A DNA stretch of 64,000 bases from a bacterium (GTDB lineage Bacteria; Planctomycetota; SZUA-567). The notes under the pieces were generated by a model that worked only from the letters and a program-made list of their open reading frames with translations, made no database searches and was not told where the DNA came from. The stretch lies in NCBI GenBank assembly GCA_003245715.1, contig QKCJ01000026.1, positions 1-64,000 on the forward strand. Direction: 5' to 3'. This document shows positions 46,776 through 56,606 of the stretch, one piece after another. The position numbers and the translations under genes were made by a program. Each line of letters starts with the position of its first letter. Position 1 is the first letter of the stretch.

Positions 46776-48794
46776 CTAAACCACCTCCTGCTTGTTGAAA
46801 TATTTTGTCAACACCGCAGAGTTGCCGCGTTCATTGTAAGCAATATGGTCGACCATACTCCTGACAATAGGCAATCCAAAACCGCCATCACGCTTGCCCA
46901 ACCTCTGGCGCTCCATCTGCGAGGAAGCAACGTCCTCATTCTCTTCAAAAACCTGCCTTGCGTTGAACCCACCACCCTCATCCTGTATCCGCACCAATGC
47001 CCGGTCTTCAAGAAGCACGGTACTGATCCTGACTTTAAGACCGGGGTTATGATGATTACCCCATTCAATTGCATTGCCGGCAATTTCACGGATACAATAA
47101 ATAAGATCATTAAGAATGTCTGCAGGTATCGGCTGCTTGTTTAAAATCATCAGGTAATTGGTCAGCATCTGCAGGCACTGCGGCGATGATGAGATAATGC
47201 AATCCAGCCAGTCACGGGAAATTGTATCAATCTGGATATCATCGCGCTGGGGCTTGTAATCAAGGGCGGCCTGCACCGTCTCCCTGAAAGCCTGCAATGA
47301 AAATGGTTTTGCCAGTAACCCGGCAGCTTTTTTACTTACCGCAACCGTGACATGTTCCTGCGGTTCCTGCCCGGTCATCAGCAACACCGGCAGCGACGGA
47401 TAACGCGAATGAATAACACTCATGGCATCAAGCCCACTCACCCCGGGCATATAAATATCCATGATTACCATATCCGGCTTGAATTCATCCACTACCTCTA
47501 GAATGCTCGCCCCGTCAGCAAGACACTTCACCATCGCCCCATCCTGCTGCAGAAGATCCGTAACCAGATTAAGGATTGATTTATTGTCATCAACCACCAG
47601 CACCCGTTTGCCGCTTAGCCTTGACGCAGGTTTATTTACCGCCGTCATTTTCTGCGCTATCAGAAGTACCGCAATATCATCAGCAAACGCCCTGGCCGGA
47701 TTCATCTGCGCAGCTTCATCAAAGATAAAAGTCAGCAGGTCTTCATTACTATGGGAATTTTTCCTGACCGTCTTCCACTGTGAATACTCTTTGCTTATCT
47801 GCATGGCCAGGTCTTCAGGCTGTTCGGTGAGGCCGTCGGTATAAATAAGCAGATAATCCCCGGACTCGAATTTGTATTGCCTGATCTCAAAGTCTTTTGG
47901 TATGTCAAGGCCCAGAGCCGGACCGTTGGCGTAAAGACATTCGCAGTTACCGCTGTTCTGGATAATCACCGGTTCAAGATGTCCCGCCAGCGAATAGGTC
48001 AGCACCTTGCTGCTCTCATTATAGATCCCGCAGAATGCTGTGACCAGATACTCCTCAGGCAAGACCTCACGCACGATATGATCCGCGCTTTTGAGAATCT
48101 CTGATGGGTCTTTTAGCGGCGCGATTGAATTAAACCAGATTTTGAATGCCGAAGCCGAGAAAGCTGCCGGCAGGCCGGAACCACTGACATCGGCAAGAAA
48201 TATCAGCAGGTTTTCATCATCAAGGTAACGCAGGTCGATAAAATCCCCACCGATACCTGACATTGGAAGATAACGGATACAGACATCGGTGTGCTTGATC
48301 CAGTCAAAGTTTCGCGGAATCAGCCTGCCGTGCATCTTGCGCAGATACTGGCGGTCACGGATATTTGTCGACTCTTTTGCCTTGCCGTTCTGCAGGTCTT
48401 CGGAGATACTCTCAAGACGTCCCCGCGTTTTATGTTTATCTTCAAGCTGACTTACAACCAGCTCCAACTCCTGCAGACTTACAGGCTTGCGCTGCACAGA
48501 AACCGCCCCCAGTTCAATTGCCTGCCTGATACTCAGATCGTTGCCGTAACCACTGAGCAGAATGATATCAATATCAGGATAATCCTTTTTGATCGTCTCA
48601 ATCAGATTTCTGCTCCCCTGCTGGCACAGGCGCAGATCGGCAATCACCGCGTCAATACCATTGCTGTTCTTATCGATAAGCTGCAAGGTCTCTGCCGCAT
48701 TATGAGCCGAATAAACCTGATGCCCACATTTGCGGAAAAAATCCGAAAGGGTGCTTGCGATTAACGATTCATTATCCGCAACTAAAATCCGCAT
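46776..48794 (-). CDS. REC-PP2C(SpoIIE)-REC-HATPase fusion protein
   Basis: The 672-residue protein heads the chemosensory operon. REC1 spans 1-120 (D7, phosphoacceptor D53, K103). A SpoIIE/RsbU-type PP2C phosphatase spans ~165-382 with intact metal aspartates in IGGDFIDL (D184), ADVSGSG (D202), LLIYTDGLTE (D320) and FADDIAVL (D372). REC2 spans 396-515 (VLVVDDN, phosphoacceptor D446, AKPFS). An RsbW/SpoIIAB-type HATPase follows to ~665 (REIAGNAIEWGN, QDEGGGFN, GGFGLPIVRSM). One chain thus holds the phosphatase and the kinase-like half of a partner switch under two receivers. The STAS proteins of the same operon are the likely substrates, and CheA the likely phosphodonor. Confidence 0.93.
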   Translation of the reverse strand: MRILVADNESLIASTLSDFFRKCGHQVYSAHNAAETLQLIDKNSNGIDAVIADLRLCQQGSRNLIETIKKDYPDIDIILLSGYGNDLSIRQAIELGAVSVQRKPVSLQELELVVSQLEDKHKTRGRLESISEDLQNGKAKESTNIRDRQYLRKMHGRLIPRNFDWIKHTDVCIRYLPMSGIGGDFIDLRYLDDENLLIFLADVSGSGLPAAFSASAFKIWFNSIAPLKDPSEILKSADHIVREVLPEEYLVTAFCGIYNESSKVLTYSLAGHLEPVIIQNSGNCECLYANGPALGLDIPKDFEIRQYKFESGDYLLIYTDGLTEQPEDLAMQISKEYSQWKTVRKNSHSNEDLLTFIFDEAAQMNPARAFADDIAVLLIAQKMTAVNKPASRLSGKRVLVVDDNKSILNLVTDLLQQDGAMVKCLADGASILEVVDEFKPDMVIMDIYMPGVSGLDAMSVIHSRYPSLPVLLMTGQEPQEHVTVAVSKKAAGLLAKPFSLQAFRETVQAALDYKPQRDDIQIDTISRDWLDCIISSSPQCLQMLTNYLMILNKQPIPADILNDLIYCIREIAGNAIEWGNHHNPGLKVRISTVLLEDRALVRIQDEGGGFNARQVFEENEDVASSQMERQRLGKRDGGFGLPIVRSMVDHIAYNERGNSAVLTKYFNKQEVV

Positions 48795-48903
48795 GAATAA
48801 TATCCTTTATCCAACAGACACAGTATGAAGCAAACCCCGTTCCACCAGTAAACATCCCGATTAGCCCCATTTCTCCCATTTTTTCATACCATAACTTGGG
48901 ATT

Positions 48904-48942
48904 ACACCAATTTTATGGCACGCCAAACCATTTGTTTGGTGT
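48904..48942. promoter_or_regulatory. Nested inverted repeats between divergent signalling operons
   Basis: ACACCAA (48904-48910) and TTGGTGT (48936-48942) form a perfect outer repeat; CCAAAC (48923-48928) and GTTTGG (48934-48939) a perfect inner one. The 252-bp region separates the che operon (start 48794) from the kinase operon (start 49047), so a regulator bound here could control both. Confidence 0.5.
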
Positions 48943-49046
48943 ATCAAAATGGCTAAAAAGAGTTTCAGAGCGTATGAAATATTTCTTGACGGTAATTTTT
49001 TCATGCGTTAACATTTGCTTGTTCATTTCAGGGTATTGGCAGATAT

Positions 49047-50654
49047 ATGTATAGAGCAGAAAATAAATTTCATATTCTGGTTGTGGATGATATTCAGGCA
49101 AGCCGGGATGTACTGGTTAAAGTATTGCGTACTGCCGGCTATATCGTCAGTTGTGCGGAATCCGGTAATTCGGCCTTTGCCCTGATCCGTAACCACGTGC
49201 CGGACCTGATCCTACTTGATGTAATCATGCCGGATATGGACGGGTATGAGGTCTGCCAAAATATTAAAAACAACCAGCGCACTGCCGGGATACCGATAAT
49301 TTTCTTAAGCGCACATGATGACCCGGAGAATAAAAGGGAAGCTTTTGAGCAGGGAGGGGTCGATTTTATCGCAAAACCCTTTAATAATTCGGAGGTTATC
49401 AGCCGGGTAAAGACCCATCTCAGCCTCAACCTATTACAGCGCGAGCTTGAGTATATGAACCATGAACTTGAAGAACGGGTGACGGCGCGCACGGATGAGC
49501 TTATCAAGGTGCAGCAGCAACTGGCCCAGAGCCAGAAACTTGAAGCTATCGGGCATATTACCGCAGGTATCGCCCACGACTTCAAAAACCTCATCGGCAT
49601 AATAATGAGCGGCGCTGAGTATATGCAGATAAACGGCCTATGCCCGGAAAACGCAAAACCTTATATGGAATCCATCCTTGATGCTGCCCACAAGGCAAAA
49701 GAGCTTACCGGCAACCTTCTTGCTTTCAGCCGCCAGCAGCAGCAGCAACAGAAAACGCTTGTCGATATCCATGAACTGGTTAATAATATTGTCAACCTTA
49801 TCAAGCACAGCTTTGACCGCAAGATCGAGATCTCCATAACCTCTGAAGCCATAAGCGCTTTTGTCCAGGGAAACCCGGCCAGTATCCAGACGGCTCTGCT
49901 TAACCTTGCCCTCAACGCCCGCGATGCCATGCCTGAGGGAGGTCGGCTGAGTATCAAGACTGAGTTATGCGGCACTTTGCCCGAGCGGCTTTTGTTTACT
50001 CCGGAAAAAAATTCACCAAGCTGGCTGCTTCTGGAAATCAGTGACAACGGCTGCGGGATTTCACCAAAGGATATCTGCAGGGTCTTTGAGCCATATTTTA
50101 CGACCAAGGACCGCGGCTGCGGGACAGGGCTTGGTTTGTCTACAGTTTACGCGATGCTGCGCGACCATAACGCCGCACTTAGCGTCAGCAGTTCTGAAGG
50201 GGAAGGCACAGCCTTCAGGCTGTATTTTCCGCACGCTGAAAGTTATAAGCCCAAAAAAATAGCCCGGCCTGAAATCTCGGTACGCGCCGGCACTGAAACC
50301 ATCCTGATTGTCGATGACGAGCTATGGATACGCCGCAATTTCAAGGATCTTCTGAGCGGCCTTGGTTATAAGGTGTACACCGCAGAAAACGGCAAGAAAG
50401 CCCTTGAGCTATATATGAGTACTCCGGGTATAGACCTGGTTATTGTTGACATGATAATGCCTGTGATGAACGGCCTTGATACGGTTATCGCGCTGATGGA
50501 ATACGACCCACAGGCAAAAATTATTATTTCAACCGGTTTCTCAGAGCGCCAGGCAATTTCTGACGCCAAGGATGCCGGAGCAAAGGGGGTTGTCTATAAA
50601 CCGACCAGTGTCGGGGAACTTACGCAAAATATTGATCTGGCTTTGAGGAATTAG
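49047..50654 (+). CDS. Hybrid histidine kinase REC-HisKA-HATPase-REC
   Basis: The 535-residue soluble protein starts with a receiver (ILVVDDIQASRDVLVK, LILLDVIMPDMDGYEV, IAKPFN). A coiled-coil (LEERVTARTDELIKVQQQL) leads to the phosphotransfer histidine in TAGIAHDFKNLIGII. The HATPase has LLNLALNARDAMPEGG, EISDNGCGIS and GCGTGLGLSTV. A second receiver ends the chain (TILIVDDELW, LVIVDMIMPVMNGLD). No sensor or membrane segment is present, so input probably comes by phosphotransfer to REC1. It is the first gene of a three-gene operon with 2-bp gaps. Confidence 0.93.
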   Translation: MYRAENKFHILVVDDIQASRDVLVKVLRTAGYIVSCAESGNSAFALIRNHVPDLILLDVIMPDMDGYEVCQNIKNNQRTAGIPIIFLSAHDDPENKREAFEQGGVDFIAKPFNNSEVISRVKTHLSLNLLQRELEYMNHELEERVTARTDELIKVQQQLAQSQKLEAIGHITAGIAHDFKNLIGIIMSGAEYMQINGLCPENAKPYMESILDAAHKAKELTGNLLAFSRQQQQQQKTLVDIHELVNNIVNLIKHSFDRKIEISITSEAISAFVQGNPASIQTALLNLALNARDAMPEGGRLSIKTELCGTLPERLLFTPEKNSPSWLLLEISDNGCGISPKDICRVFEPYFTTKDRGCGTGLGLSTVYAMLRDHNAALSVSSSEGEGTAFRLYFPHAESYKPKKIARPEISVRAGTETILIVDDELWIRRNFKDLLSGLGYKVYTAENGKKALELYMSTPGIDLVIVDMIMPVMNGLDTVIALMEYDPQAKIIISTGFSERQAISDAKDAGAKGVVYKPTSVGELTQNIDLALRN

Positions 50655-50656
50655 TT

Positions 50657-51805
50657 ATGTCTGCATTAAAATTAGAGGCCGAAAATTTCTACGGCAACAT
50701 TATCAATAATTGCGCAAGTGTGATTATGATAATCAATTCTTGCTTGCGCATCGAATACATCAACGATTTCGGCGTTAAGATTTTTGGCTACGGCAAGAAC
50801 GAACTGATCGGCCAGCCGCTGCAGCCTTCGATTATACCCCATCAGGATTCCGAGGGCAATCTAATCGACATGGATAAAATTTTCAGTGAAAATTGTTCTG
50901 AAGCTTATCAGGAATGTGAGCACCAGACCAAACAGGGAACGCGGTTGTGGCTCTGCTGGAACTGCGGGCTATATAATAATCAGAGCAATAATGCCAAACA
51001 GATTATCTGTACCGGCATCAATATTACCGGCCACCATCTGCTGCACCAGACCATGCGCAAACAGCAACTTCTGGCTGTAAAGGCCGACCGCCTGCGTTCT
51101 CTTGGTGAAATGGCCAGCGGTATGGCGCATGAGTTCAACCAGCCCCTGACCATTATCCGCGGAGCAGCGGAGAACCTGCTGATTGGTGAGCAGCGCGGCT
51201 GGGATATCAGCTCTGAAGAAAGAATTGAACGCCTTGAAGTAGTTATCGACCAGACGGCAAGGCTTACTGAACTTATCGACCACGTACGCTCTCTCTCAAA
51301 CAGCAACAGTAATTCCGAAAAAGTTCCGGTGGACTGCCGCGAACTTCTGGAGAGCGCCCTTGGCATGGTCAAGGCCCAGATCTACTCACGCGGCATCGAG
51401 ATCGAGACTGATATCGCTTATCAGGGCCTGAAGGTCATCGCCAACCCCTTCTCGCTTGAGGAATCAATTTTGGCGCTTCTCTATAACGCCCGTGACGCGG
51501 TACAGGAAAGTCTGGCCAAACATGAAGGGAAAGAAGCGAAAATATATCTGAAGTTATCCCGACTCAATAACGGGCGCGAGATATGTATTGAACTGCGTGA
51601 CACCGGAACGGGAATTGACGAGAGTATACGCGATCGGATTTTTGAGCCGTTCTTCACCAGTAAAGCACCCGACCGCGGCACCGGCCTTGGCCTGTCCTCG
51701 GCTAAAAATTCCATTGAAGAAATTGGCGGCAAACTTGAACTTGAGTCAAAGCTTGCAGAAGGCACCACCATCCGCGTAACCCTGCCGGCAATCGGAGAAA
51801 ACTGA
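50657..51805 (+). CDS. PAS-domain sensor histidine kinase (NtrB-like)
   Basis: The 382-residue soluble kinase has a PAS domain (VIMIINSCLRIEYINDFGVK, FGYGKNELIGQPL), the phosphoacceptor histidine in GMAHEFNQPLTIIRGAAENL, and a HATPase (ESILALLYNARDAVQES, LRDTGTGIDESI, GTGLGLSSAKNSIEEIG). The AHEFNQPL form is typical of kinases paired with sigma-54 activators. Cysteines in LWLCWNCGLY near the end of the PAS domain are unusual. It lies 2 bp after the hybrid kinase and 2 bp before its probable partner regulator. Confidence 0.93.
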   Translation: MSALKLEAENFYGNIINNCASVIMIINSCLRIEYINDFGVKIFGYGKNELIGQPLQPSIIPHQDSEGNLIDMDKIFSENCSEAYQECEHQTKQGTRLWLCWNCGLYNNQSNNAKQIICTGINITGHHLLHQTMRKQQLLAVKADRLRSLGEMASGMAHEFNQPLTIIRGAAENLLIGEQRGWDISSEERIERLEVVIDQTARLTELIDHVRSLSNSNSNSEKVPVDCRELLESALGMVKAQIYSRGIEIETDIAYQGLKVIANPFSLEESILALLYNARDAVQESLAKHEGKEAKIYLKLSRLNNGREICIELRDTGTGIDESIRDRIFEPFFTSKAPDRGTGLGLSSAKNSIEEIGGKLELESKLAEGTTIRVTLPAIGEN

Positions 51806-51807
51806 AT

Positions 51808-53232
51808 ATGCCTGAAGAAATTCTGATAATTGATGATGAGGAGCAGATCCGCAAACAGTTTTCCGATTTTCTCAGAAGGCTGGGCTATACTGTAACCTGT
51901 CTGAGTAACGCACAGGAAGGCATCAGCCATATTCAGATGAATAACCCGGCCGTTGTTATTGTCGACATACTACTCCCGGGCATGAGCGGCCTTGACATGC
52001 TCAAGGAAATCTCCCAGCACAGCGTGCTGCCGGAGGTAATTGTCATCAGCGGACATGGCACACTTGATGCCGCGATTTCCGCGCTCCGTTACGGTGCGGC
52101 GGACTTTATAAAAAAACCGGTAAACCTCAATCAGCTTGAAGGAGCCGTCGCTAGATGTATCCGCAAATCTTCCTCACGCAACAACCACAATGTCATCAGC
52201 CAGAATAACAGAAATATTTTCAGGGAAGTTGAATGTATCGGCAACAGCGCACAGATAATGCAATGCCGCAGAATGACTGAAGTCGCCGCGCAATCACCCT
52301 GCCACAGCATTCTGATAACCGGCGAGACCGGTACCGGCAAAGAAGTAATGGCGCGTCTTTTCCATCAGATCCGTTACGGCAACAAACGCCCCTTTATCGC
52401 TGAAAACTGCCCGGCCATCGCTGAGAGCCTGATTGAGAGCGAACTCTTCGGGCACGTTAAAGGCGCCTTTACCGGCGCACAGAGCGACCGGTCTGGCGCG
52501 TTTGAACAGGCCCACGGCGGGACGCTATTTCTTGATGAGATCGGCGACCTGAGTCTCAACGCTCAGGCCAAACTTTTGCGTGTTCTTGAGAACAGGACTG
52601 TGCGCCGGGTTGGCTCTTCTGAGGAGAAGCATATCGACGTTACCGTTGTCGCGGCAACCAACTGCAATCTCGCCAAGCAGGCATCACTGGGCAAGTTCCG
52701 GCAGGATTTATTCTTCCGCCTCAATTGCTTCGCGCTCCACCTGCCGCCGCTGCGCGACCGGATTGACGACATCATCCCCCTGGCCTCATTTTTTGCCGAC
52801 AGGTTCATGCCGTCTTCCTCAATCGGCGGCAGAAAAATCACCTTCTCGGACAAAGCCAAGGCTGCGATGCTTGAATACAAGTATCCGGGCAATGCCAGAG
52901 AACTGCGTAATATTATCGAGCGCGCCTGCATAATTTCTCCCTCCAGCGAAATCGGCATCAATGACCTTGAATTCGCCTATCCGGAGTATATCAAACTTCC
53001 TGAAGTTGACGAGTATACACAGGAAGATGAAACAGCGGCGGCAATTCTGACTGGTGATGATTGCGCAATGGGAGAATACCTGCAGGATGAAATTGATGCG
53101 GTTTATCAGGCGCTACAGAAATCCGGCTGGAATAAAAGCAAAGCTGCACGCTTGCTTGGCATCAGTTATGATGCACTGCGCTGGCGGGTGAAAAAATACC
53201 AGCTTAAAGAACCGCAGAGCTTTATTCATTAA
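51808..53232 (+). CDS. Sigma-54-dependent response regulator (NtrC family)
   Basis: The 474-residue activator has a receiver ([37 protein letters not shown]) and an AAA+ domain. The AAA+ domain carries the Walker A motif [14 protein letters not shown], an intact GAFTGA loop for contact with sigma-54, and Walker [13 protein letters not shown] Fis-type helix-turn-helix ([20 protein letters not shown]) ends the chain. The GAFTGA motif indicates true sigma-54 activation. It closes the three-gene relay operon and is followed at once by a terminator. I found no convincing -24/-12 promoter in the window, so its targets may lie elsewhere. Confidence 0.96.
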
Positions 53233-53295: not shown

Positions 53296-55434
53296 TCAAT
53301 TAGGAATCTTCAGAACAAACGCCGTTCCAAGTCCCAACCTCGAGTCAATATCAACCTCGCCGCCAAGCTCCTGACGTATGGTATTCTGCACCGCGTCAAG
53401 CCCGACACCCCGTCCGCTGATATCACTTACTGTCTCGGCAGTTGAAAATCCTGGACGGAAAACCAGTTTCAGCTTTTCTTTCTCATCAAGACTGACGGCT
53501 TCCGAATCAGAGATGATCTGCTTTCTCAATGCGCTCGCCAGAAGCTTCGCTGAATCCATCCCCCGCCCGTCATCGCGGATTGTAATATTAAGCCCCGCGT
53601 CGTTATTTTCAACAGACAGGGTAACTGTCGCTTTCTCAGGCTTACCGGCATTCTGGCGCTCCTCTGCCGAATCCACACCATGGTCGCAGGCGTTACGCAA
53701 AAGATGCACAAGCGGCCCGTTGAGCGCGTGACCTGTCTCATAATCAATCAGCACATCACGCCCCTGGAAGACGAAATCAATCTCTTTATTAAGGCGCTTA
53801 ATCAGATCAGGAATTATTTTAGTCGATCGCGTCAGTGCGCGGTGTGCCGGGATTGACTGCAGATCTTTTAATTTCTTCTGCAGCGCGCCAAGACCCTGAC
53901 TGTCAGCAGCCATCGCTGAAAGCTCACGCAAAACCGTGAGCGGCAGACGCACAGACGGCCCGTCGGAACTTAGCTCCTCACCAATTATCGGCGCCGCAAT
54001 TTCACAGGCTTTAGTTATGGTCTCGTCCAGCCTTTCAAGCGCCTCGCTTATGCCCTGAACAAATTCCTTCTCAAGAACCGTCGCATTACGCGCCTTGCTG
54101 AGATCATTTTCAAGCTCTGCCGATACCGCAGCAAGATCCTGCAAGCCGAAACTTCCGGCAGCACCTTTAATGGTATGCACACCCCGGAACATGTTATGAA
54201 TAAGCTCAAGCCAGTTTTCAGCTTTCTCAAGACTTTCAAGACTGACATGAAGCTCTTTCTGAATCTTCATGGTCTCGCCTAAAAATTCCCTGAAGGTGTC
54301 CGGGTCTTCAGCTATCGCCTTGAGCTGCATATTCTCCTTCTGGCTTGCCGCAACCTCAGACTCAAGACGCTTGGCCTCGGTAACGTCCTCAAGTTCAACC
54401 AGAATATCGCCACTCGGCTCGCCGTTACGCTCTACCGGATAATAGCGCAGGCGCAACCAGCAGGACTTGTCACCTTCTTTAAGCTCAATCTCCGGAAAAG
54501 GATTCAGCGGCTCCAGATCATCAGAGGAGAGCAGCCCCATCCTGACAATCTCAAAGAAATCCTCCGCCTGTTTGCGCTCATCCTCATGCCGCCTCGTCAA
54601 ACCGACAAGATCAAGAAAATCACGCCCGCGGATAACCTCCTGATTTAAGATACTTGTCGCGGACAAACTATGCTCAGGCTTGACCCGACCGTCTTTATCA
54701 ATTGACAAAAGGCCAACCGGAACCGTGTTCATAATCTGCTTGATCTCTTCAGTACGTGCGGCAACCAGAGCGTCAAGATCGGTCATGGCTTTGTTGATGG
54801 TGTTAAGCATCAGATTAAAGGCCGTCGCCAGCTTGCCAAGCTGCTCATCATCATGCACCGGCATCTCAGTGGCATAATTGCCCTCGGTAACCGACTGGAT
54901 GGTATTAACCACCTCGTCAATAAGCGTCCCCCTAAAGACATCCTGCTCACGCAAAGCTTCAAGCTCACTGCGCTCCTGCTCACTCAGCAAATCACCACAC
55001 AGGGCAACCTCTTCAGATTTTTCCCCTGTGACCACCGGAGCCTTATCTTTGGCAAGCTCAGTCGCCTTGTCAATCAGAGAAGCAAGCGTCTTCATGCCAT
55101 CAAATGACGAACCAAGGTCAACACCAGTACGGGCCGCAATAAGAATACGCCGCGCCTGGTTGACAAAGCAGGCATCATCATGCGCCTCCTCACACTTGCC
55201 GCAAAGTCCGTCCACCGCCACCAGCGCCTTGTCAAGAGACTCCTGCTCGTAATCAGCTTTCTCCGGCGGGAGGTCTACCGGCGCTGCATCATTGTTGATC
55301 TGCCGCTGGTTCTTGACAAAGTCCAACAGGATATCCGCGGCCAGTTTAGCCAGCACGCCGTTGGGCTGTTTCTTGATTAGCTTTTTTACAAGCTGATGGG
55401 CTTTGAATGTATCCTTATGACTGCCGACAGGCAT
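53296..55434 (-). CDS. Soluble CheA-like kinase HAMP-PAS-Hpt-HATPase without CheW domain
   Basis: The 712-residue protein has no membrane segment. The N-terminal ~165 residues are helical with a CGKCEEAHDDAC cluster at 79-89. A HAMP-like segment and coiled-coil lie at ~170-232 (TIQSVTEGNYATEM, LGKLATAFNLML). A PAS domain (VPVGLLSIDKDGRV) spans ~235-355. An Hpt domain carries H420 (FRGVHTIKGAAGSFG). A CheA-type HATPase ends the chain (LVHLLRNACDHGVDS, IRDDGRGMDSAK, ISGRGVGLDAV). It stops exactly where CheA's CheW-like domain would begin, so it cannot dock to a receptor array in the usual way. AGGAGAAG precedes the ATG. Together with the downstream-facing relay it may feed the hybrid kinase (inference). 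Confidence 0.9.
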   Translation of the reverse strand: MPVGSHKDTFKAHQLVKKLIKKQPNGVLAKLAADILLDFVKNQRQINNDAAPVDLPPEKADYEQESLDKALVAVDGLCGKCEEAHDDACFVNQARRILIAARTGVDLGSSFDGMKTLASLIDKATELAKDKAPVVTGEKSEEVALCGDLLSEQERSELEALREQDVFRGTLIDEVVNTIQSVTEGNYATEMPVHDDEQLGKLATAFNLMLNTINKAMTDLDALVAARTEEIKQIMNTVPVGLLSIDKDGRVKPEHSLSATSILNQEVIRGRDFLDLVGLTRRHEDERKQAEDFFEIVRMGLLSSDDLEPLNPFPEIELKEGDKSCWLRLRYYPVERNGEPSGDILVELEDVTEAKRLESEVAASQKENMQLKAIAEDPDTFREFLGETMKIQKELHVSLESLEKAENWLELIHNMFRGVHTIKGAAGSFGLQDLAAVSAELENDLSKARNATVLEKEFVQGISEALERLDETITKACEIAAPIIGEELSSDGPSVRLPLTVLRELSAMAADSQGLGALQKKLKDLQSIPAHRALTRSTKIIPDLIKRLNKEIDFVFQGRDVLIDYETGHALNGPLVHLLRNACDHGVDSAEERQNAGKPEKATVTLSVENNDAGLNITIRDDGRGMDSAKLLASALRKQIISDSEAVSLDEKEKLKLVFRPGFSTAETVSDISGRGVGLDAVQNTIRQELGGEVDIDSRLGLGTAFVLKIPN

Positions 55435-55532
55435 TGTTCTTCTCCTATTTTTTTATTCCCCGTGCTGCAACTATAACGCCTCTCAAACTAAAGGTTCTGA
55501 AAGTTTTTTAAGCACGCTTGATAACTTTTATT

Positions 55533-56606
55533 TTAAAACTGCAACTCCGCCCGCATTTTCCTGACGCCGGCAAGACGTGTCAGCTGCTCGCGCATTCGTG
55601 CAACCTCATCAATACCGTCATCCACCGAAGCAAACGCAACCTCAAGTCCTCCAAGGTCAGCCTCCGGCATATCGCTGCCAATACGGCGCAGCATCTTGTG
55701 CAGACGCTCACCCGGCTCGGCGTTACCTGTATACCAGTCAACAACTTTCTCAATCGCGTCAGTCGCCCTGTCCTGCGGTATGCCCTCAGCAAGCTTGATC
55801 GCACGAAACGGCACCTGCGAACCGCGCCCGCCAATAACAATCGAATAGGTACCCTTATCAGCAATCAGGCCGATATCCGCGCAGTAACTCTCAGAGCAGT
55901 TGCGCATACAGTCACTGACTGCGATCTTGACATCAAAATTTGTACCCCGTCCATAGAGCCGGTCATCAATCGACTGCGAAAGCGAGATCGCATCCGTCCC
56001 CTGACAGAAACGGCAAAGCGAGCCGCAACAGGCGCGGACATTGCGAATACCGTGATGCAATACACCAACGCGAAGACCGACCGACTTCAGCTCCTCAGAA
56101 GCCTCATCAAGCTGATCGGCGTTTAAAAGCAGAACCACCCGCTGGGCATGGGTAAGCTTGACCAGCCCCGCACCCTTCTCTGCAATCTCACTTATCTTGG
56201 CAAGTTGCACCGCCGTCAGCACACCACCAGGGCTGTTAGCAAGAACGGCGTAAGTGTTATTCTGCTGCTTGAGACCAAGCGCCCACATCGGACCACCCTC
56301 GCCTGCAGTATCCTCAAACTTGCCGCTTAAGGCATCGGCAGCCGCCTTGAGCAAGGCCTCATCAGCCTGAATGGCCAGAACCGTAATCCTGTACTCATCA
56401 TCACCAGCTTCTTCCACAGACCTGACCGTAGCCTTGATCTCCGCGATATCCCCGGTCGCTGTCGGCAGACCGAAATAAATCTCTTCGCCCTCCTGCGGCT
56501 CTTCATCAGAAATAATAACCGCTTCAATCGCTTCCGGTAAATCAGCAAAACTCTCCGCCAGATCCATCGCCTCAGTATCGAACATCACATCTTCAAATGT
56601 CTGCAT
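55533..56606 (-). CDS. PilZ-like domain fused to a nitrite/sulfite-reductase-type Fe-S domain
   Basis: The 357-residue protein has a small beta-rich N-terminal region (~35-80, EEIYFGLPTATGDIAEIKAT) resembling a divergent PilZ domain. The rest is NIR/SIR-like: the ferredoxin-like half (VKLTHAQRVVLLL) and the Fe-S half with cysteines C193, C194, C198, C201 (RACCGSLCRFCQG) and C233, C237, C242 (DCMRNCSESYCADIG). The second C-x3-C fits the family; the first cluster spacing is unusual, and only one half-repeat is present, as in small siroheme reductases. It lies 98 bp upstream of the CheA-like gene on the same strand. A redox or nitrite sensor rather than a catabolic enzyme is suggested by context only. 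Confidence 0.75.
   Translation of the reverse strand: MQTFEDVMFDTEAMDLAESFADLPEAIEAVIISDEEPQEGEEIYFGLPTATGDIAEIKATVRSVEEAGDDEYRITVLAIQADEALLKAAADALSGKFEDTAGEGGPMWALGLKQQNNTYAVLANSPGGVLTAVQLAKISEIAEKGAGLVKLTHAQRVVLLLNADQLDEASEELKSVGLRVGVLHHGIRNVRACCGSLCRFCQGTDAISLSQSIDDRLYGRGTNFDVKIAVSDCMRNCSESYCADIGLIADKGTYSIVIGGRGSQVPFRAIKLAEGIPQDRATDAIEKVVDWYTGNAEPGERLHKMLRRIGSDMPEADLGGLEVAFASVDDGIDEVARMREQLTRLAGVRKMRAELQF

Follow-up and report, generated by a model that had tools for sequence, protein, structure and literature searches.

What does a protein made of a PilZ-like domain and a sulfite/nitrite reductase (NIR/SIR) module do when its gene stands directly before that of a CheA-like kinase? The question is raised by a locus in the window, the whole 64,000-nucleotide stretch of bacterial DNA that we analysed, for which an inspection of the letters alone (the sequence-only reading) had suggested redox, NO or nitrite sensing linked to second-messenger control. 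A redox, NO or nitrite role of the NIR/SIR protein is possible. As the best explanation of the whole, we lean towards the view that the two genes work as a single signalling unit, with the NIR/SIR protein as the cofactor-bearing sensor of a soluble kinase.

The NIR/SIR protein and its kinase partner

The NIR/SIR gene is divided as follows.

55533..56606, minus strand: gene for the PilZ-like plus NIR/SIR protein, 357 aa, ATG start, first of the two-gene pair
56271..56606, minus strand: PilZ-like beta domain at the N-terminus (residues 1-112), lacking both RxxxR and [DN]xSxxG (model, Foldseek, profiles)
56082..56267, minus strand: NIR_SIR_ferr half domain, residues 114-175 (Pfam E 1.2e-9; 10/10 members)
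55674..56051, minus strand: NIR_SIR 4Fe-4S domain, residues 186-311 (Pfam E 9.7e-14; 10/10 members)

Pfam matches to NIR_SIR_ferr and NIR_SIR agreed with the single NIR/SIR unit of the sequence-only reading, and all ten family members carried both of these siroheme sulfite/nitrite reductase domains. A structure model of the window protein (mean pLDDT 76.8) confirmed the predicted reductase fold, the closest solved structure being MjFsr (7np8_A; Z 21.4, 2.7 A, 215 residues). NirB, the large subunit of the assimilatory NADH-nitrite reductase, of which we compared the C-terminal siroheme module, gave the best family match in every one of the ten (TIGR02374, with E values as low as 4e-33). The NIR/SIR family and NirB formed adjacent groups in the module tree, and both have a T-x-x-Q-R motif and C-x-R-x-C in the second cysteine pair. 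However, the NIR/SIR protein scored 102 bits, far below the NirB cut-off of 578 bits; the family lacks NirB's FAD/NADH and [2Fe-2S] parts and, unlike NirB, has CX4C, Asp in place of Lys, and the PilZ-like N-terminus. Group I Fsr, an F420-dependent sulfite reductase, also has a single siroheme module and is a homodimer, but the NIR/SIR family has neither its F420 oxidase nor its ferredoxin parts, and lacks its CX5C and two of its four sulfite-binding residues. Elsewhere in the window's genome, we observed two ordinary single-module NIR/SIR paralogues with canonical CX5C (L002:1342-2145 and L003:1300-2115).

The CheA-like kinase gene lies 98 bp past the NIR/SIR gene, as the sequence-only reading had it.

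55435..55532, no strand assigned: 98-bp spacer of the pair, in which no terminator-like site was found
53296..55434, minus strand: soluble CheA-like kinase, 712 aa, second of the pair (Pfam, Foldseek)
55168..55203, minus strand: kinase N-terminal CxxC-x3-H-x3-C motif, C78, C81, H85 and C89 (invariant in 10/10)
54793..54921, minus strand: kinase HAMP domain (Pfam; 10/10 members)
54379..54723, minus strand: kinase PAS-like region, residues 238-352 (secondary structure of the model; one member matches PAS_9)
54022..54288, minus strand: kinase Hpt domain with the likely phospho-acceptor His420 (9/10 members)
53302..53712, minus strand: kinase CheA P4-like HATPase (9/10 members)

The kinase resembles CheA in its Hpt domain and P4-type HATPase, with Foldseek matches to T. 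maritima CheA P3P4 and P4, and His420 and the ATP-binding residues that we checked were intact in 9/10 kinases. It differs from CheA in its Cys/His motif, HAMP domain and PAS-like region, and in that no P5 was found: the Pfam matches of the window kinase included no CheW-like domain, and the sequence stops right past the HATPase. The NIR/SIR protein and the kinase both appear soluble; no transmembrane segment was predicted in the window kinase. For the kinase N-terminal region, whose structure model was of low confidence, we found no solved structure or named family, and no Pfam family covered it. Two stand-alone proteins of 252 aa (L037:1411-2169 and L038:1489-2247) carry the same kinase N-terminal region with CGxC-x3-H-x3-C (E 2.8e-14 and 4e-6, respectively); the L037 gene is located after an MCP-like gene.

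Full-length NIR/SIR homologues, with 37-53% identity, occurred in three phylum-level groups. A one-genome-per-species scan yielded two of them, L021 (a deltaproteobacterial bin, 43%) and L022 (45%), each with a kinase homologue directly after the NIR/SIR gene. Searches that used kinase residues 1-114 as the query added copies in G063, from the window's phylum, and G471, from that of L021, and gave seven copies among 40 genomes of L022's phylum, L022's own genome included. Wherever both genes were intact (ten loci, the window included), the NIR/SIR gene came first and the kinase gene next on the same strand, with spacers of at most 159 bp in the other intact carriers and overlapping genes in three. 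The pair is a conserved two-gene unit, because its flanking genes mostly differed and were alike only among close relatives. At an eleventh locus (G811, L052:3541-6034), residues 42-215 are missing from the NIR/SIR gene and about 205-298 from the kinase; both genes are decayed. The G063 kinase (L030:2049-3416) has HisKA instead of Hpt and no HATPase, and the next gene lies on the opposite strand, 227 bp on; we read it as an unusual or truncated variant.

Co-occurrence with the kinase at 53296, which the sequence-only reading had put forward as a check, held in every testable carrier. When the N-terminal domain of each gene was used as the query against two phyla (392 and 395 genomes), all NIR-type matches but one were accompanied by the kinase, and every strong kinase-domain match had the NIR gene. 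The sole match without a kinase came from a further genome, on a contig that ends inside the NIR gene. The pair was rare, being present in 2/392 genomes of the window's phylum. Pairwise distances of the NIR/SIR protein and the kinase correlated (r = 0.94), as they should for genes that are inherited together. The window and G063 copies, although from one phylum, did not group in the module tree, which hints that the pair may have been transferred horizontally. Among viral contigs, we found no relatives of the NIR/SIR protein; on plasmids, relatives were confined to the reductase portion of NirB-like proteins and none covered >80% of the NIR/SIR query, and the kinase gave a similar outcome.

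The sequence-only reading had recognised no sulfur-assimilation or electron-transfer gene nearby, and we recognised none, with Tex upstream and two-component genes downstream. The latter (46776-53232) encode a SpoIIE protein with receiver domains, a hybrid kinase, a PAS kinase and an NtrC-type regulator, in a cluster that converges on the pair. We rejected them as members of the system since they do not stand beside the pair in other carriers. No response regulator was found among the partly annotated flanking genes of the other carriers. The linkage of putative sensor and kinase expected of a two-component sensor pair was conserved. That the genes are paired shows that they function together; it does not identify the NIR/SIR protein as the sensor.

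The cofactor site and the substrate pocket

Three features of the NIR/SIR protein describe the cofactor site and the pocket.

56013..56030, minus strand: first cysteine pair C193-X4-C198, where the canonical form is CX5C (invariant in 10/10)
55881..55910, minus strand: C233-x-R-N-C237-X4-C242 (alignment with Fsr, family alignment)
55932..55934, minus strand: Asp225, aligned with Lys460 of MjFsr, which binds sulfite (Asp in every family member)

The seven cysteines had been described as two clusters, and we located them at residues 193, 194, 198, 201, 233, 237 and 242. The non-standard spacing noted for the first cluster is no chance of one protein: C193-X4-C198 is present in 10/10 full-length family members. 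C194 and C201 are weakened as ligands, both being variable across the family. Catalytic siroheme sulfite/nitrite reductases have the cluster motif CX5C-Xn-CX3C (PMC10229431). The window protein has CX4C-X34-CX3C instead, and both CX4C and CX3C hold throughout the family. C237 aligned with Fsr Cys472, the cysteine that bridges the cluster to the siroheme iron, and is kept. The invariant changes of the family include CX4C for CX5C, SDC for SGC, and a fifth invariant cysteine, C242. We rejected C242 as unique to the family, since one compared NirB also has Cys there.

Sulfite and nitrite reductases use siroheme as their cofactor, and siroheme is also an intermediate on the way to heme d1 and in the alternative heme route; SUMT, a siroheme-pathway enzyme that also serves B12 synthesis, is needed for siroheme. 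We found SUMT in 9/11 carriers. In the phylum of G393, all six intact carriers (6/6) had SUMT vs 17/34 other genomes (hypergeometric p = 0.026, relatedness ignored), a link that rests on few, related genomes. SUMT was not found in G811, the carrier of the decayed pair, or in G471, an intact carrier in which an AhbC-like fragment lies on the edge of a contig. In the related genomes G393, G824 and G825, the gene directly after the kinase is AhbC-like; the two complete copies scored 616-621 bits, below the curated cut-off of 650, and the G393 copy is partial, cut by contig ends. This neighbour is confined to one clade. By its family name and a published account (PMC3942049), AhbC works on a derivative of siroheme along that alternative route to heme. 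Beyond the AhbC-like gene of G825, an ORF (L047:1-1443) carries the sequence CSFLCPMG, which by eye resembles a polyferredoxin Cys motif.

Because of the SUMT distribution and the AhbC-like neighbour, siroheme binding by the NIR/SIR protein is likely but not certain. An unlikely but serious alternative is that siroheme has been lost and that C193, C198, C233, C237 and perhaps C242 hold a [4Fe-4S] cluster only, so that the pair would simply sense redox state or oxygen/NO through Fe-S. Such a loss would fit the cluster spacing, the SGC-to-SDC change and the pocket residues, all altered in every member, as well as the intact carrier in which SUMT was not detectable; furthermore, IspG, a Foldseek match, shares the fold, and there the same fold holds a cluster without siroheme. 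By contrast, the presence of SUMT in most carriers and its absence from the decayed one, the AhbC-like neighbour in one clade and the retained siroheme-bridging cysteine argue that siroheme has been kept.

The pocket bears on catalysis. Four anion-binding residues (MjFsr Arg355, Arg423, Lys460 and Lys462) are reported to be perfectly conserved across sulfite reductases (PMC10229431). Their equivalents in the window protein are Leu122, Arg188, Asp225 and Lys227 (aligned chain numbering), and 10/10 members have Leu/Ile, Arg, Asp and Lys at these positions, so that two of the four are kept. The position of Asp225 is Lys in NirB, Fsr, both ordinary paralogues and the first modules of nearly all two-module enzymes. 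NirB also lacks Arg at exactly 355, its Arg lying two residues on, where the NIR/SIR family has Asn; the Lys-to-Asp change is therefore the stronger point. Asp at the 225 position does occur in the second modules of two-module enzymes; second modules of two-module sulfite reductases do not build a substrate site. Judged from these residues, the pocket of the family would no longer suit a doubly charged anion, and ordinary sulfite reduction would therefore be unlikely. The invariant substrate-site changes argue against ordinary sulfite/nitrite reduction. Sensing of a neutral ligand or of redox state is possible.

Altered reductase activity is also possible, as Arg188 and Lys227 remain. We regard as improbable, and more so than the loss of siroheme, that the protein is an active, altered reductase (acting, for example, on NO, nitrite, hydroxylamine or an organic sulfur compound) whose co-expressed kinase regulates the pathway or vice versa. 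The two retained pocket charges agree with such an enzyme, and there is a precedent in Group II Fsr, in which the arginines are changed and which is thought to use another substrate (PMC10229431). However, the equivalents of Lys460 and Arg355 are Asp and a hydrophobic residue in 10/10 members, no constant electron-donor gene stands beside the pair in the partly annotated flanks, and the constant partner is a kinase and not a donor.

The PilZ-like N-terminus

The N-terminus is beta-rich, as had been noted, with predicted strands at residues 20-33, 42-48, 54-68 and 71-82 and a helix at 83-94. Its likeness to PilZ stood up in both profile comparison and Foldseek. Against nine bona fide PilZ domains from carriers, profile comparison gave 68% probability (E 4.7e-5, 61 columns), with controls (30 column-shuffled and one reversed) reaching at most 0.4%. 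In the Foldseek/VIA list, which was dominated by the reductase part and tested the N-terminus lightly, chains of the PilZ protein MrkH came next after sulfite reductases and IspG (58 columns, 2.2 A, E 0.038). The similarity to PilZ was partial, with plain Pfam matches at E 0.08-0.12 in at most two members.

Second-messenger control, the other half of the role first suggested, found no support. RxxxR was present in 0/10 family N-termini, and [DN]xSxxG gave a single match in the ten, out of place at position 100 of one member. The family thus resembles true PilZ domains by profile and by the local match to MrkH, but lacks their c-di-GMP motifs, and by the usual motif rules c-di-GMP binding by the N-terminus is not expected. 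That the protein is a c-di-GMP effector by virtue of its PilZ-like domain, with redox control by the cluster, as the sequence-only reading suggested, is very improbable given the missing motifs, even though the domain is PilZ-like and carriers have true PilZ proteins, and hence probably c-di-GMP signalling.

A proposed signalling unit

Two of the four substrate-binding charges are replaced, and the pairing with a kinase is conserved in unrelated bacteria; for these reasons, the NIR/SIR protein is probably no working reductase but an old enzyme turned into a sensor. We infer that it serves in the cytosol as the sensor partner of an orphan kinase and carries Fe-S, probably with siroheme. In the signalling unit that we favour, the protein would derive from a NirB-like single-module sulfite/nitrite reductase and act in the cytosol. 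The four cluster cysteines that it keeps would hold a probable [4Fe-4S] cluster coupled to siroheme, and its remodelled anion pocket would preclude ordinary six-electron reductase function. The state of this cofactor would reflect redox conditions, a small ligand (NO or another) or the supply of siroheme. The signal would pass to the kinase, probably by direct contact involving the PilZ-like N-terminal domain, and the CxxC/His/Cys-HAMP-PAS-Hpt-HATPase kinase would then phosphorylate a response regulator encoded elsewhere.

In the literature that we searched, we found no siroheme-based sensor and no combination of PilZ with siroheme; a paper on D. vulgaris CheA mentions siroheme merely as a fluorescence marker. 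A precedent is NnaR, an orphan regulator with a fused HemD domain that controls nitrate/nitrite assimilation in actinomycetes (PMC11162112). NnaR is similar in that signalling has there taken over an inactive domain of a tetrapyrrole enzyme, in a context linked to siroheme (PMC11162112). It differs in that its domain is HemD and its output is DNA binding, and the two proteins are not homologous.

Tentatively, and with clearly less confidence than we place in the signalling unit, we suggest that the NIR/SIR protein is the siroheme-[4Fe-4S] detector of a sparse, widespread two-gene system and the first sensor known to use a siroheme cofactor. It would descend from an assimilatory reductase whose substrate pocket came to serve sensing instead of catalysis. 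If this is true, it would be a new sensor type for two-component signalling and a new class of metal-cofactor sensor, and cellular sensing of siroheme, NO, nitrite or sulfite status via siroheme would become testable.
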